A DNA stretch of 64,000 nt from Fibrisoma montanum (GTDB lineage Bacteria > Bacteroidota > Bacteroidia > Cytophagales > Spirosomataceae): the NCBI RefSeq assembly GCF_003583365.1, contig NZ_QXED01000005.1, positions 496,001-560,000 of the forward strand. The letters are read 5' to 3'. The notes under the pieces are model-generated. The model was not told the origin of the DNA. It saw nothing but the letters and a program-made list of their open reading frames with translations, and made no database searches. Both the position numbers and the translations under genes were made by a program. Shown here piece after piece: positions 27,202 through 31,831 of this stretch; the stretch's first letter is position 1; each line of letters begins with the position of its first letter.

Positions 27202-27228
27202 GGTCAGGTGGCATTGAGCCGCCTGACC
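27202..27228 (-). terminator. hairpin at the end of the oxygenase-cyclase-kinase operon
   Basis: GGTCAGGTGGC (27202-27212) pairs with GCCGCCTGACC (27218-27228) over 11 positions with one G-U. It begins at the response regulator stop codon. On the minus strand there is no T-run after it, so termination is uncertain. Confidence 0.4.
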
Positions 27229-27986
27229 TATTTAAATCGGAAGCTGTTCAGAAACTCGTCTTTGTAGTTTTTGCCGAGCGGAACGATATGCGGCCCGATG
27301 GTCATTTCGTGGTCGTTGAACACATCCACGCGGCTGATATTGACCGCATACGAGCGATGCACACGGACCAGCCGTTTGTGGTTCAGTTTGTCAAGAACGG
27401 CCGTCAGCGGCAGGCGCAGCGCGTACTTCTTGGTGGTGGTGACAAACGTAGTGTAAATGTCCTCGGCTTCCAGAATCAGGATGTCGCTGAAGTGAATCTT
27501 CACGTACTGATAGCCCTGCTTGATAAACACATCATCGTCGATTTGCAGGATGGTGTCCCGCTCCGGAGCTGCGGCCGTGGTCTTGCCGGTAGGCAGGGAG
27601 CGCGTACTGAACGTATGCAGCGACATATCGATGGAAATCCGCAGGTTGAGCAGATTATACGGCTTGGTCATGTAGGCCGCCGGGTACGTTTGTTTGGCGC
27701 GGTCGAGGGTGTCCGAATCCGACAGGGCGGTCAGGTAGATGACCGGAATCGGCCGGACGTTGGTGATGCGCCGGACCGTTTCGATGCCATCGAAATCGCC
27801 TTTGATGTTGATATCGCACAGCAGTAGATCCACCGGGTTACGTTCGAACAGATCGACGGCTTTGGTGCCATTGTTGGCGATACCGACCACGTTGTACCCT
27901 TCGGCTTCCAGGCTGTCGCTGAGGGCCATTGCCAGAATAGCTTCGTCTTCAACGATCAGAATATTAACTTTTGTGTTCGACTCCAT
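27228..27986 (-). CDS. LytTR-type response regulator
   Basis: 252 residues. An N-terminal receiver domain (NILIVEDEAILAMALSDSL; phospho-acceptor Asp in LLLCDINIKG near residue 60; conserved Thr in YLTALSD; Lys in YMTKPY) is followed by a LytTR DNA-binding domain (DVFIKQGYQYVKIHFSDILILEAEDIYTTFVTT... and RVHRSYAVNI). It should be phosphorylated by the histidine kinase encoded immediately upstream (30 bases away) and bind direct-repeat DNA sites. It is the last gene of the four-gene operon that starts at 31730; targets are unknown. Confidence 0.93.
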   Translation of the reverse strand: MESNTKVNILIVEDEAILAMALSDSLEAEGYNVVGIANNGTKAVDLFERNPVDLLLCDINIKGDFDGIETVRRITNVRPIPVIYLTALSDSDTLDRAKQTYPAAYMTKPYNLLNLRISIDMSLHTFSTRSLPTGKTTAAAPERDTILQIDDDVFIKQGYQYVKIHFSDILILEAEDIYTTFVTTTKKYALRLPLTAVLDKLNHKRLVRVHRSYAVNISRVDVFNDHEMTIGPHIVPLGKNYKDEFLNSFRFK

Positions 27987-28016
27987 GGCAGGATGTACTA
28001 GTGATGATGTCTGAAA

Positions 28017-29942
28017 TCAGGCCAGTGCCAGTTCGCTTTCCGGAATGTGCAGTTGAAACCGGGTGCCGTTCGTGTTGTCAATGGTAAACTCACCCCCCGT
28101 CTGCTGACTCAGGCCTTTGATCAGCCGTTTACCAAACGAACCACCCGACCGCTCCCAGTTCGATACATCGATGCCGGGGCCGTTGTCCTGTACTTCGAGC
28201 ACAAGCCCGGCCTGTTTGTGGAGGTTGATGATCAGAACCGGCTTGTCGACGGCCCGGTACGCATACTTGAAGGCATTGGTCAGTAATTCGTTCAGAATCA
28301 GGCCGAGCGGAATGGCCAGGTCGATGTTCAATTCATCGAAATCACTATGGAACTGAAAATCAAACGAGCGCTCGCCGAAGCCGTAGGCGTGGATAAGGCC
28401 GGCTGTCAGTTCGCGAATATACTGACGAATATCGATAGTCGAAATCTGATCCGTCTTATATAACTGCTGGTGAATGAGGGACATAACCTCGATGCGCTGC
28501 TGCCCTTCCTGAAACGCCCGAATCGCCTGCTCGTCGGTCAGTTGGTTCGATTGCAGGCTCAGCAGGCCCGAAACGATGCTGAGGTTGTTCTTGACCCGGT
28601 GGTGCAGTTCCTTCATGACCATCTTCAACTGGTCCGACTGCTCCTGAATCCGGATTTTATCTTCGGCCAGTTCGCGGGTTCGTTCGGCTACTTTCTGCTC
28701 CAGCTGGATGTTCTGCGCAACAATGAGCCGTTCCGTTTCGTCCTTGTACGTCTTGATTTTGTAGGCAATGGCAATGGAAAACAGGATCGCATGGGCGTCG
28801 CTGCTCATCAGCAGCATGGTGTGGTTCAGCCATGAATAGGTCAGGATGCCGTAGATGTACAGCGACAGGTAAAGGATCGCGAAAATGGGAACGGAGTAGG
28901 CGATCAGGAACAGAAACGCCGGTTTATAGCCCGTGCGGTAAATCCGGGTACCCGTGTACAGCATGAAGGCCGCGGCCAGTGGGGTCGTGTTCTGGTAAAG
29001 AACCGCGATACGGCCAAAACCGAACACCGCGGCTATCAGAAAAATCAGAAAAAAGCCGAACAGCAGCCGAAATCCATACCGGATGATGGGGTCGGTCCGG
29101 GTTTTGATCCTCAGAAAATAGTAGGCAAACGCAAACGACAGCAGCGCCGTCATGATCGGGATGGCGTAGAACAGCCGGTCGTTGAGCCAGAACGGAATGT
29201 CGCGAAAGAGTTCGTAAAAGTGGCCCGAAAAAATGGCCAGTTGAAGCGTGAAGGCAAACAAATACCCGCCCAACAGCAGATAGTCGCGTTCGTGCGTTAC
29301 GGCGTAAATCAAGAGCTGATACAAAACGACAGCCAGCAGAATACCGAACAGCAACCCCTCAATAACATCCGTTGGGTGCGACTCTCGAATCAGGGCGTAC
29401 TGCGGATAAATACTGGCCGGCAGCGACTTCCGGTCGAACCGGTTCATTCTGAGCAGGTAAGTCTTCTGCTGCCCCGGCCGAAGCGGCAACCGCATGATGT
29501 CGCGGCTGGCGGGCAGGTATTTTTCGGCCATTACCGCCTGAAGGCCCCCTTTACCGATGGGGAACGTCCGGCCGTTAGACCATTCATAGAGCAGTACGGT
29601 AGCATAGCCGAGCGTTGGCACCACCAGGTACAGCGATTCGTCGGTCTGGTTGCGTACGGTAAACCGAAACCAGTACACATTGTTGGTGTCAACGTCGATG
29701 CGGACCTGGTGGTAGTCGAACGGCCGAAACGCCGACCAGTGCTTCCCGATCTGGTCGGCATGGACGCTGGATGTAAGCATGTCGCTATGGTCGGCCACAG
29801 CATAGATGCGCTTGGAGTCGGCAACGGTCAGCGGTTCGGCGGCCCAGGTGTCAGTTAGCCTGAACAGCAGCAGACTGATGAGGAAGCACCGGATGACGAA
29901 GTTCGGTCGCCTGCCTGTGTTGGATAAAAACATACACTGCAT
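28017..29942 (-). CDS. 7TMR-DISM sensor histidine kinase (HisKA_2 type)
   Basis: 641 residues. A signal peptide (LISLLLFRLTDTWA) is followed by an extracytoplasmic 7TMR-DISMED2-like beta domain (to about residue 185; FRFTVRNQTDESLYLVVPTLGYATV). Then come seven membrane helices (about 195-395), a short coiled coil (VAERTRELAEDKIRIQEQ), and a HisKA_2 dimerisation domain with the phospho-His in MKELHHRVKNNLSIVSGLL. The HATPase part has ILNELLTNAFKYAY (N box) and VQDNGPGID (G box). The start must be ATG at 29942 or 29933, because no other start precedes the signal peptide; the gene therefore overlaps the end of the cyclase-like gene by at least 83 bases. 7TMR-DISM domains often bind carbohydrates or other small ligands. 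Confidence 0.93.
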   Translation of the reverse strand: MQCMFLSNTGRRPNFVIRCFLISLLLFRLTDTWAAEPLTVADSKRIYAVADHSDMLTSSVHADQIGKHWSAFRPFDYHQVRIDVDTNNVYWFRFTVRNQTDESLYLVVPTLGYATVLLYEWSNGRTFPIGKGGLQAVMAEKYLPASRDIMRLPLRPGQQKTYLLRMNRFDRKSLPASIYPQYALIRESHPTDVIEGLLFGILLAVVLYQLLIYAVTHERDYLLLGGYLFAFTLQLAIFSGHFYELFRDIPFWLNDRLFYAIPIMTALLSFAFAYYFLRIKTRTDPIIRYGFRLLFGFFLIFLIAAVFGFGRIAVLYQNTTPLAAAFMLYTGTRIYRTGYKPAFLFLIAYSVPIFAILYLSLYIYGILTYSWLNHTMLLMSSDAHAILFSIAIAYKIKTYKDETERLIVAQNIQLEQKVAERTRELAEDKIRIQEQSDQLKMVMKELHHRVKNNLSIVSGLLSLQSNQLTDEQAIRAFQEGQQRIEVMSLIHQQLYKTDQISTIDIRQYIRELTAGLIHAYGFGERSFDFQFHSDFDELNIDLAIPLGLILNELLTNAFKYAYRAVDKPVLIINLHKQAGLVLEVQDNGPGIDVSNWERSGGSFGKRLIKGLSQQTGGEFTIDNTNGTRFQLHIPESELALA

Positions 29943-30570
29943 TCAGAATAAAAACGGCAAGGGTTAACAACTGGAGAAAATGCTTGTCGGGGTATTTGAG
30001 CCAGACAAACACGCTCATCAGTGTGTTGCTGATAAGCTGACACCAGGCCGATAAGCCTGAAAACACGCTGCCCGCCGGCCGGCTGATAATGTGCTGAATA
30101 TACAGCGCCGACATCACGACCGTAATGATGTAGGCCGACGTAGCGCCCATGCTGGTGTCGTAGCCTTCCTGATAGAAGAAATAAAACACCGGAATCCAGA
30201 ACAGAAACACGGATATCTTGATCCAGGCAAAATACGGCCGCACCGCGGGGTTAACGATTTGCTTGCTGCCGTAGCGCAGGAGCAGGATAAAAATGAAAAT
30301 ATCCATAAAGAACCAGCCGCGCAGGCCCCAGACAAACAGCCGGCCCATGTCGGTGAGCAGGACGAAGCCCCACACCAGCTCCCAGGCAAAGTTGGACGCC
30401 CCCGCCAGATACGGCATCTCGACGTACTGGTAACGGAGGCCATTGCGGATGATGATGCCGTAGGCAATGTTCCAGAATACCGTACCGACCAGCACGAGAC
30501 CAATCTCAAGGGGGGTGTAGTCGCAGAGGTTAAGCCACTGATCGGGCGTATAGGTACAGGGTGGTTTCAT
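29851..30570 (-). CDS. seven-helix membrane protein resembling Pyr4/PaxB-type terpene cyclases
   Basis: 239 residues with about seven membrane helices. The second helix and loop show W-N-I-A-Y, then Y-x-x-x-MP, then SNFAWELV with Glu64. This matches the recalled pattern of fungal membrane terpene cyclases Pyr4 and PaxB, whose catalytic Glu lies at the same position in an NFAWE motif within proteins of the same size. The second acidic residue of Pyr4 (Asp near 218) seems replaced by Asn210 in ILNAVYVF, so activity may differ. The start ATG overlaps the MpaB-like stop (ATGA), and the last 83-92 bases are shared with the kinase gene in another frame. Alternative: an unrelated small membrane protein. 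The family call needs an HMM or structure comparison. Confidence 0.55.
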   Translation of the reverse strand: MKPPCTYTPDQWLNLCDYTPLEIGLVLVGTVFWNIAYGIIIRNGLRYQYVEMPYLAGASNFAWELVWGFVLLTDMGRLFVWGLRGWFFMDIFIFILLLRYGSKQIVNPAVRPYFAWIKISVFLFWIPVFYFFYQEGYDTSMGATSAYIITVVMSALYIQHIISRPAGSVFSGLSAWCQLISNTLMSVFVWLKYPDKHFLQLLTLAVFILNAVYVFIQHRQATELRHPVLPHQSAAVQAN

Positions 30571-31730
30571 CGGGGTTCGTTTTGTCGGCGAAGGGCCTCA
30601 GCGCCTTCGGTAAGGTAGGAGGGTATGTAGAACTGAACGTGCTTGAAGCCGTTGAACATCGTGGTGGTGTTCTGCAGGAAATCGACGGACATTTTTCCGA
30701 GCAGCCACCGCAGCACGGGTACGAGGGTTTCGGCCCGCTGACGCCCCGAAGTCAGCAGCTTGATCCGGTTGGCTACCCGGCGCTGGTTGGCCAATGGGAT
30801 CTGACCAATACCCAGTACGTCGCCGACGTGGTTGCCGCAATAGTAGCGGATCAGCACGGGCACCGCCGGTTTGAGCAGTACCCCCACTTTCCGGCCCATG
30901 TCTTCGGCGAGTGCCGCGGCCAGCTGAACACCCCAGGGCGAAGCCGCCAGCTGCTGGTCGAAGATCGTGTAGCCCAATTGCAGCGCTTCGTCGTAGTTGG
31001 GGGCCATCAGCCGTTCGTCGAGGCCCAGCCAGTGACCCACTACGTTCCAGCAGTGGATGTACGCGTCTTTCTGTTCCTGACTCAGCTTATAGCCGCTCAT
31101 CTCAAGGCCTTCGACGACCAGCGCGCTGAACGACAGCAGCGTACCGGCCATATCCTCCTGATTGATCGGCGCGCCGTGGTTCTGGTGATCCCAGTCGCGC
31201 TGGGTAATGAGCAGGTGCCGGATCGAGGCATGAATCAGCCGGACCTTCTGGGTTGTTATAATCCCACGCCCGCCCGGCGACAAGCCTCCCGGCTCCATCG
31301 CATAGATGACAAACTGCGCCGTTTCCATCAGCCGCCGGACCAGATTCGGTACGCCATCGCGGGCGGTGAGCAGCCCGGTTTCGTAGAGCACTTTCGAGCC
31401 GTTGGCGCAGGAATAGGCCATGGGCAGCGAGCGAAAGTTCAGCAGCATCGCGATCGTAACGGCGTTGGTGGCAAACACCCGCTGGGCCGTACGGATGGCA
31501 TCCGGATTGGCCCAGGCTGGGGGCAGGGCAGTTTCTTCGAGATACTGGTCCAGTCGTTCGCCAATTGGGCCGGGTAGCAGGCTTCCCCGCAGGTCGTAAT
31601 TGCGGGTCAGGGTTTGCAGCAGGCGGTTGGCTGCCTGGATGTCATGATCACGCACCAGATCAGCGATCAGGGCGTCGGCCACGGCATCCTGTTGCATTCG
31701 GAAAGCGGAGAGGTCGGTGGCAGGAAGCAT
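30567..31730 (-). CDS. MpaB/latex-clearing-type oxygenase (DUF2236 family)
   Basis: 387 residues, mainly helical, without signal peptide. It carries the core of the ER-bound oxygenase mpaB / rubber oxygenase domain: a GLLTARDGVPNLVRRLMETA helix, TQKVRLIHASIRHLL with R164, H167 and H172, then GAPINQEDMAGTLLSFS, the family signature. Known members are b-type haem oxygenases that cleave polyisoprene (Lcp) or the farnesyl chain of mycophenolate precursors (MpaB'). The axial haem ligand is one of these His, not assigned here. It is the first gene of an operon with a cyclase-like membrane protein (4-nt overlap), a histidine kinase and a LytTR regulator, pointing to an isoprenoid substrate under dedicated sensing. 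Confidence 0.8.
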   Translation of the reverse strand: MLPATDLSAFRMQQDAVADALIADLVRDHDIQAANRLLQTLTRNYDLRGSLLPGPIGERLDQYLEETALPPAWANPDAIRTAQRVFATNAVTIAMLLNFRSLPMAYSCANGSKVLYETGLLTARDGVPNLVRRLMETAQFVIYAMEPGGLSPGGRGIITTQKVRLIHASIRHLLITQRDWDHQNHGAPINQEDMAGTLLSFSALVVEGLEMSGYKLSQEQKDAYIHCWNVVGHWLGLDERLMAPNYDEALQLGYTIFDQQLAASPWGVQLAAALAEDMGRKVGVLLKPAVPVLIRYYCGNHVGDVLGIGQIPLANQRRVANRIKLLTSGRQRAETLVPVLRWLLGKMSVDFLQNTTTMFNGFKHVQFYIPSYLTEGAEALRRQNEPR

Positions 31731-31806: not shown

Positions 31807-31831
31807 GTCGGGGACGACCAGCGCCCCCGAC
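31807..31831 (-). terminator. probable terminator of the TonB_C gene
   Basis: On the minus strand GTCGGGG (31831-31825) and CCCCGAC (31813-31807) form a stem followed by CATTTT. A second GGCCCG/CGGGCC hairpin precedes it near 31834-31855. It lies between the TonB_C gene and the start of the oxygenase operon. Confidence 0.5.

Follow-up and report, generated by a model that had tools for sequence, protein, structure and literature searches.

A four-gene block of Fibrisoma montanum, located in a 64,000-nucleotide stretch of contig NZ_QXED01000005.1 (positions 496,001 to 560,000; hereafter the window), represents one form of a widespread cassette with three parts, in which genes for an oxidoreductase, a Pyr4-type transmembrane terpene cyclase-like protein (TMTC) and a signalling protein are placed side by side. 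We consider the chances evenly balanced that this cassette makes a receptor ligand from a housekeeping isoprenoid. In the window, its parts are an MpaB/Lcp-like haem oxygenase, the TMTC and a 7TMR-DISM sensor histidine kinase, the latter followed by a LytTR response regulator (Table 1). The original prediction, made from the DNA alone, described the block as a dedicated isoprenoid unit with its own sensing; a comparison of 81 loci shows that it is no Fibrisoma curiosity, as the three-gene arrangement recurs with swappable outputs, and the earlier interpretation as a whole is partly supported.

Genomic neighbourhoods of TMTC genes

A scan with one genome per species returned at least 80 TMTC loci, and together with the window these form a main set of 81 loci from ten NCBI phyla. 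The scan patterns include the NxxWE motif, so the conservation of its glutamate (E64 in the window protein) within this set is partly selected. Two additional samples were collected with hidden Markov models (HMMs) independently of the motif, namely an order-level sample (146 genomes searched by profile, 23 TMTCs in 21 genomes, with several matches from the same genus) and a phylum-level sample (392 genomes, 21 with a TMTC match).

All genes of at least 100 amino acids within six places of the 81 TMTC genes were clustered, several contigs being shorter than six genes. Three families, and no others, exceed four loci. The most frequent is a merged signalling group, which occurs in 72 loci with 62 genes at position +1; MpaB follows with 48 loci and 44 genes at position -1, and a flavin adenine dinucleotide (FAD) enzyme with 25 loci and 25 genes at position -1. 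No prenyl synthase, UbiA or other prenyltransferase, methyltransferase or transporter recurs in more than four of the 81 loci within six genes. The absence of a recurrent prenyl synthase, UbiA or transporter points to a general isoprenoid as the substrate. Across the 81 loci, the prenyl synthase, UbiA and tailoring genes that mark a terpenoid cluster do not recur near the TMTC genes; single loci deviate, with for example a P450 gene in L013 and a thiamine-pyrophosphate enzyme gene in L031.

The gene upstream of the TMTC encodes MpaB in 45 loci, the FAD enzyme in 24 and another protein in 7, and none was found in the remaining 5. All four FAD enzymes tested (L013, L014, L047 and L051) contain the Pfam domains Amino_oxidase and NAD_binding_8, and two of them resemble HpnE and phytoene/zeta-carotene desaturases in NCBIfam, with scores far below the equivalog cut-offs. 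Both alternative upstream enzymes come from families having isoprenoid-active members.

In 60 of the 81 loci, a signalling protein is encoded immediately downstream of the TMTC on the same strand, compared with 22 of 284 control genes located at least three places from a TMTC (window excluded). These 60 genes encode 32 histidine kinases, 6 SpoIIE proteins, 4 nucleotide cyclases, 14 Ser/Thr-kinase/AAA_16 proteins (8 with SpoIIE, 5 with a cyclase match and 1 cut short) and 4 AAA_16-only proteins, without which the count is 56/81. Of the 60 loci, 36 have a signalling gene that overlaps the TMTC gene, and in 51 it either overlaps or lies at most 10 bases away. It follows the TMTC gene in 38/45 MpaB-type and 19/24 FAD-type loci. 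Since the main set includes many contigs of metagenome-assembled genomes (MAGs) and some close species (e.g., seven Algoriphagus), 60/81 does not stand for 60 independent events, and the number of output changes on the TMTC tree (see below) is the safer one.

Counting any arrangement, a signalling gene is present in 70 of the 81 loci. Among the ten additional loci, kinases hidden by overlap of open reading frames (ORFs) or a split frame are present in L042, L052 and L055; a tandem TMTC precedes a Pkinase gene in L022; an STK-AAA gene (Ser/Thr kinase with AAA domain) lies upstream of MpaB in L019; a cyclase-AAA gene lies directly upstream of the TMTC genes in L020, L084 and L069, the TMTCs being tandem in L020 and L084; a convergent kinase is found in L043; and a GGDEF-EAL gene occupies position +2 in L030. 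A signalling gene was not found in the other eleven of the 81 loci (L023, L026, L028, L031, L045, L074, L081, L086, L088, L089 and L091), and in L045 and L086 no further gene follows the TMTC before the contig ends.

The neighbourhoods of the order-level sample were taken from 20 refetched regions together with the window, L012 and L013, and G522 was counted in part from the main-set data. A signalling gene is directly downstream of 12 of the 23 TMTCs, one gene further in three (G525, G475 and G049) and convergent in one (G515); one TMTC is at a contig end (G498). In the phylum-level sample, four close relatives outside the main set (L121–L124) all have a signalling gene beside the TMTC: a cyclase in L121, a SpoIIE protein downstream in L122 (with MpaB upstream), kinases on both sides in L123 (with no MpaB or FAD match) and a kinase upstream in L124, where the contig ends.

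Exchange of outputs and sensor domains

On a quick TMTC tree of 80 rows, with weakly supported deep branches and without L086 (cut by a contig end and also left out of one alignment), there are at least eight changes of output class and at least two of upstream enzyme class. The window protein and its counterpart from Fibrisoma limi stand alone on a long branch. Judged by tree and gene order, the cassette is a stable input module with exchangeable outputs.

Many effectors carry a membrane N-terminus of approximately 200 residues with mostly four to six hydrophobic peaks (denoted '6TM'), for which no Pfam match was found in the proteins scanned. Profile comparisons by hhalign connect sensors of different outputs: those of MpaB-linked kinases match those of MpaB-linked cyclases (E 4e-25), FAD-linked cyclases (8e-17) and FAD-linked kinases (4e-10); FAD-linked kinases match FAD-linked SpoIIE proteins (E 1e-45); and HisKA_2 kinases match MpaB-linked SpoIIE proteins (E 8e-9). 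The 7TMR-DISM receptor type, which in the window belongs to a kinase, is joined to a SpoIIE output at the same place of the cassettes of L266, L270 and L273; these loci come from two further families of the order, and each has MpaB upstream.

Sequence features of the TMTC and the oxygenase

The assignment of the window TMTC to the Pyr4/PaxB-like proteins, proposed earlier from its motifs, is borne out by the HMM search: the protein matches PF25129 at 49.8 bits (cut-off 27) rather than an unrelated membrane family. The same family is matched by 79 of 80 aligned TMTC members, the window protein included (at an E-value of 0.001). Its AlphaFold2 model (pLDDT 93.6) has seven helices (residues 20–47, 54–70, 77–104, 111–134, 143–163, 172–192 and 197–225), and the modelled fold is KDEL-receptor/SWEET-like. 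E64, previously suggested to occupy the position of the catalytic glutamate, indeed aligns with an almost invariant column: Glu is present in 80/81 proteins of the main set, 23/23 of the order-level sample and 17/20 of the phylum-level sample. Asp occupies the column of residue 210 in 76/81 and 21/23 proteins of the first two sets. We take these columns to correspond to Pyr4 E63, the first catalytic acid, and Pyr4 D218, respectively. The cassette profile also finds TMTCs on plasmids of Nostoc and Streptomyces clavuligerus, with both Glu and Asp kept.

The three exceptions of the phylum-level sample (L114, L116 and L117) are distant TMTC relatives in small genomes that carry Ala in place of E64; the wider family may therefore include proteins other than cyclases. 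For the distant TMTCs of a small-genome group (g113 and g118), no cassette was recognised by eye in an ORF listing.

The window oxygenase, correctly foreseen as MpaB-like, matches PF09995 at 71.8 bits (cut-off 23), and its residues 15–345 match the rubber oxygenase structure 5o1m in a phmmer search (E 4.8e-30). Its R133, T137 and H167 align with R164, T168 and H198 of Lcp-K30. According to extracts of PMC5522427, H198 is the proximal haem ligand of Lcp, R164 and T168 are required for activity, and K167 is a moderately conserved distal ligand (59% among Lcps). Equivalents of R164, T168 and H198 are present in 43/43, 42/43 and 43/43 cassette MpaBs, respectively (43 of the 45, two cut proteins being left out); the distal Lys167 is replaced by Glu136 in the window oxygenase. 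The MpaB-like protein may cleave an isoprenoid oxidatively, a putative activity suggested by its family.

Proposed role of the cassette and alternative interpretations

In the mechanism that we propose, a membrane-associated oxidoreductase, either the MpaB/Lcp-like haem oxygenase or, elsewhere, the HpnE/phytoene desaturase-related FAD enzyme, would act on a housekeeping isoprenoid, for example the menaquinone side chain, a polyprenyl lipid or a carotenoid. Its product would be cyclised or otherwise transformed within the membrane by the seven-helix Pyr4-type protein, and the resulting lipophilic terpenoid would be the ligand of the receptor encoded by the adjacent gene, in the window the 7TMR-DISM domain of the kinase. 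The receptor would then signal to the LytTR regulator or, in relatives, through a nucleotide cyclase, SpoIIE phosphatase or Ser/Thr kinase. Because the enzymes are kept, the outputs are exchanged, the catalytic residues are retained and no other pathway genes recur, the cassette is best read as a ligand producer. A broader version, in which a terpenoid hormone or autoinducer of many phyla would be made from a housekeeping lipid by an oxygenase or flavin enzyme together with a Pyr4-type cyclase and read by a co-encoded modular receptor with exchangeable output, is advanced here tentatively and with less confidence.

Several observations weigh against ligand production. The conserved Asp of the TMTC is replaced by Asn in the window, F. 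limi (L018), L052 and L074, which makes cyclisation by the window protein uncertain; of the dedicated isoprenoid unit with its own sensing that the original prediction envisaged, the protein families and the gene linkage hold, the cleavage step is putative and cyclisation by the window protein is doubtful. The sensors are not one family, as only 8 of 36 sensor group pairs exceed 90% probability in hhalign, and the window 7TM domain matches no other sensor group at this level among the 36 pairs. The '6TM' domain is also present without a TMTC in the same order, and hence looks like a general receptor type recruited to the cassette. The five Ser/Thr-kinase/AAA or AAA_16 outputs tested have either no hydrophobic peak (four) or a single one; outputs without a membrane receptor of this kind would have to meet the ligand in the cytosol or make contact with the TMTC itself. 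Finally, 6 of the 23 TMTCs of the order-level sample have no adjacent signalling gene (G540, G505, G533, G051 and two of the three in G547); three of the six belong to one genus, and the one tested (L262) adjoins a photolyase-related gene.

The main rival, which we regard as possible but less likely, is a sensory complex that makes no ligand. Oxygen, redox state or an isoprenoid would be sensed by a haem or flavin protein; the seven-helix TMTC-like protein, instead of being an enzyme, would act as receptor or transducer, and the product of the adjacent gene would be the output. It is favoured by the Lcp fold, described in extracts of PMC5522427 as a globin fold resembling globin-coupled sensors, as well as by the receptor-like fold predicted for the TMTC, the cytosolic outputs and Asn210 of the window protein. 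However, the Glu and Asp of the TMTC are near-invariant and kept even on the Nostoc and S. clavuligerus plasmids, the haem and flavin partners both come from families with isoprenoid-active enzymes, and the P450 of L013 fits chemistry better than sensing. Even so, a terpene-cyclase-family protein acting as a sensory subunit would be new.

Two further explanations are less likely than either ligand production or a sensory complex. Two-component regulators are common near biosynthetic genes, and the block could be a small cluster that makes a pigment, an antibiotic or a membrane terpenoid and whose own regulator controls production only; we find this improbable. Biosynthetic pathways are not usually regulated by stand-alone nucleotide cyclases, SpoIIE phosphatases or STK-AAA-GAF giants, the signalling gene overlaps or nearly touches the cyclase gene in most loci (overlap or at most 10 bases in 51/60), and none of the prenyl synthase, UbiA, methyltransferase or transporter families passes four of the 81 loci, although the bacterial Pyr4-like cyclases known from the main text of PMC13307353 do work in meroterpenoid clusters. 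Least probable is a membrane-maintenance unit, in which the enzymes would repair or degrade damaged isoprenoids (quinones or carotenoids) and the signalling protein would report membrane stress: oxidative breakdown would suit Lcp/MpaB and HpnE/desaturase-like chemistry, and an FAD-TMTC pair lies beside a photolyase-related gene in the two loci tested (L262 and L089), but this explanation alone does not account for the close linkage with dedicated receptors and the exchange of outputs.

The four-gene block in Fibrisoma montanum

Table 1. Coordinates of the block and associated elements in the window
Feature	Positions	Strand	Evidence
MpaB/Lcp-type haem oxygenase-like protein, 387 aa	30567..31730	-	PF09995 E 1.2e-19
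Pyr4-type transmembrane terpene cyclase-like protein (TMTC), 239 aa, 7 TM helices	29851..30570	-	PF25129 E 4.8e-13
7TMR-DISM sensor histidine kinase, 641 aa, start overlaps TMTC gene	28017..29942	-	Pfam
REC-LytTR response regulator, 252 aa	27228..27986	-	PF00072 E 6.1e-20, PF04397 E 8e-15
E64 codon (NFAWE), candidate catalytic acid	30379..30381	-	alignment
N210 codon, Asp in 76/81 homologues	29941..29943	-	alignment
Terminator-like hairpin 5' of block	31807..31831	-	consensus match only

The tight packing of the four minus-strand genes was described correctly before, including their ORF coordinates: the oxygenase and TMTC genes overlap by ATGA, and the regulator gene begins 30 bases past the kinase gene. 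The kinase gene was said to overlap the TMTC gene by at least 83 bases; the overlap is 92 bases for the longest ORF and 83 when counted from the second Met. The kinase ORF has its first ATG within the N210 codon of the TMTC (29940–29943, frame +1), probably by coincidence. Pfam domains agree with the proposed two-component system, the kinase having 7TMR-DISMED2, 7TMR-DISM_7TM, HisKA_2 and HATPase_c and the adjoining gene encoding REC and LytTR.

The oxygenase-TMTC pair is kept far outside the genus, and the whole block is present in F. limi (L011/L018) with 90–96% identity. The ratio of non-synonymous to synonymous substitution rates (dN/dS) between the two species is 0.065 for the oxygenase, 0.149 for the TMTC, 0.076 for the kinase and 0.046 for the regulator; by this measure, purifying selection acts on all four genes. 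Consensus scans place a terminator-like hairpin between the block and an upstream TonB-like gene, count 13 terminator-like sites in the region (mean 5.5 in shuffles) and give no match to a sigma-70-type promoter there.

The 7.79 Mb genome has one TMTC, six MpaB/Lcp domains and fifteen 7TMR-DISM matches, fourteen of them above the cut-off. Other links of MpaB with signalling genes occur in the same genome. At L146:14-6906 (G000:C4:58513-65405), a gene whose product combines caspase, GDSL lipase, MpaB/Lcp and DUF5995 domains (1590 amino acids in the fetched stretch, 1684 in the open frame) overlaps a 7TMR-DISM histidine kinase gene by ATGA, and at L147:3176-6568 a histidine kinase (720 amino acids, weak 7TMR-DISM match) is followed after 6 bases by an MpaB/Lcp-like gene. 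In another genus (L151), a long MpaB ORF likewise precedes a 7TMR-DISM gene. When the fifteen matches are ranked, L146 is the strongest, the window kinase second and L147 the weakest (below the cut-off), and the 7TM domain of L146 is the nearest to that of the window outside its orthologue (tree support 88/85).

Variant arrangements

Several loci deviate from the common gene order. In L020 and L084, a zinc-ribbon/nucleotide cyclase/AAA/TPR protein is followed by two tandem TMTCs, with MpaB on the opposite strand. In L262 and L089, one of which comes from a Sporocytophaga MAG, a convergent photolyase-related (DPRP) gene takes the place of the signalling gene beside the FAD-TMTC pair; a convergent ORF of the same size is present in L263, L276 and L091, with the FAD enzyme upstream in all but L091. 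The TMTCs of L269, L272 and L271 are followed by a protein of 743–748 amino acids (with NAD_binding_8 in L269, the one tested), after which L269 and L272 have a SpoIIE-type gene with a 7TMR-DISM-like match. The TMTC of L012/L031 (L031:5989-6666) is followed by a thiamine-pyrophosphate enzyme, which presumably resembles that of the zigralone cluster, and by a 304-residue protein without a Pfam match that looks by eye like a UbiA-type membrane protein; this locus is possibly a Bacteroidota meroterpenoid cluster.

Comparison with known systems

The oxygenase shares with Lcp rubber oxygenases and MpaB (PF09995, formerly DUF2236) the sequence match to 5o1m, the haem-ligand His and the Arg and Thr residues, and differs from them by Glu at the Lys167 position and by its operonic link to a TMTC and receptors. 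The TMTC, in turn, shares family membership (PF25129), seven helices and the Glu of the WE motif with Pyr4-like proteins, including bacterial XiaH, TylF, GroF and ZigF. Characterised bacterial members lie in terpenoid gene clusters, whereas the cassette TMTCs lie in three-gene signalling cassettes, and in the window protein Asn takes the place of the conserved Asp. The cassettes have no conserved prenyl synthase, prenyltransferase or transporter, in contrast to the Pyr4-type clusters in the main text of PMC13307353. That text, which contains neither 'kinase' nor 'Bacteroid', retained 264 of 1107 bacterial candidates by the presence of terpenoid genes nearby; the signalling cassette, likewise without such genes, may explain part of the 843 set aside. 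Under the broader hormone or autoinducer reading, a large bacterial branch of the fungal-type membrane terpene cyclase family would serve signalling rather than natural products.

The searches made here found no described system of this make-up, and we therefore rate the cassette as categorically new. CqsA-CqsS and LqsA-LqsS are synthase/receptor quorum-sensing pairs, and in one study CqsS was reportedly joined to an adenylate cyclase. They resemble the cassette in having a ligand-making enzyme, a putative one in the cassette, beside a polytopic receptor that is joined to kinase or cyclase outputs; the likeness is one of gene arrangement, as the enzymes are unrelated and the cassette has a terpenoid-type enzyme pair and many outputs. 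By this analogy, drawn from adjacency and output swapping, the cassette may be a CqsA/CqsS-like autoinducer pair; ligand production, if proved, would make it a new member of the general synthase-receptor signalling idea. To our knowledge, the ligands of 7TMR-DISM receptors are mostly unknown. The window kinase has the 7TMR-DISMED2 and 7TM domains of these receptors and differs from them by its link to an enzyme pair that possibly supplies the ligand; the cassette would then represent a new class of bacterial small-molecule signals and offer candidate ligands for 7TMR-DISM and other orphan polytopic receptors.

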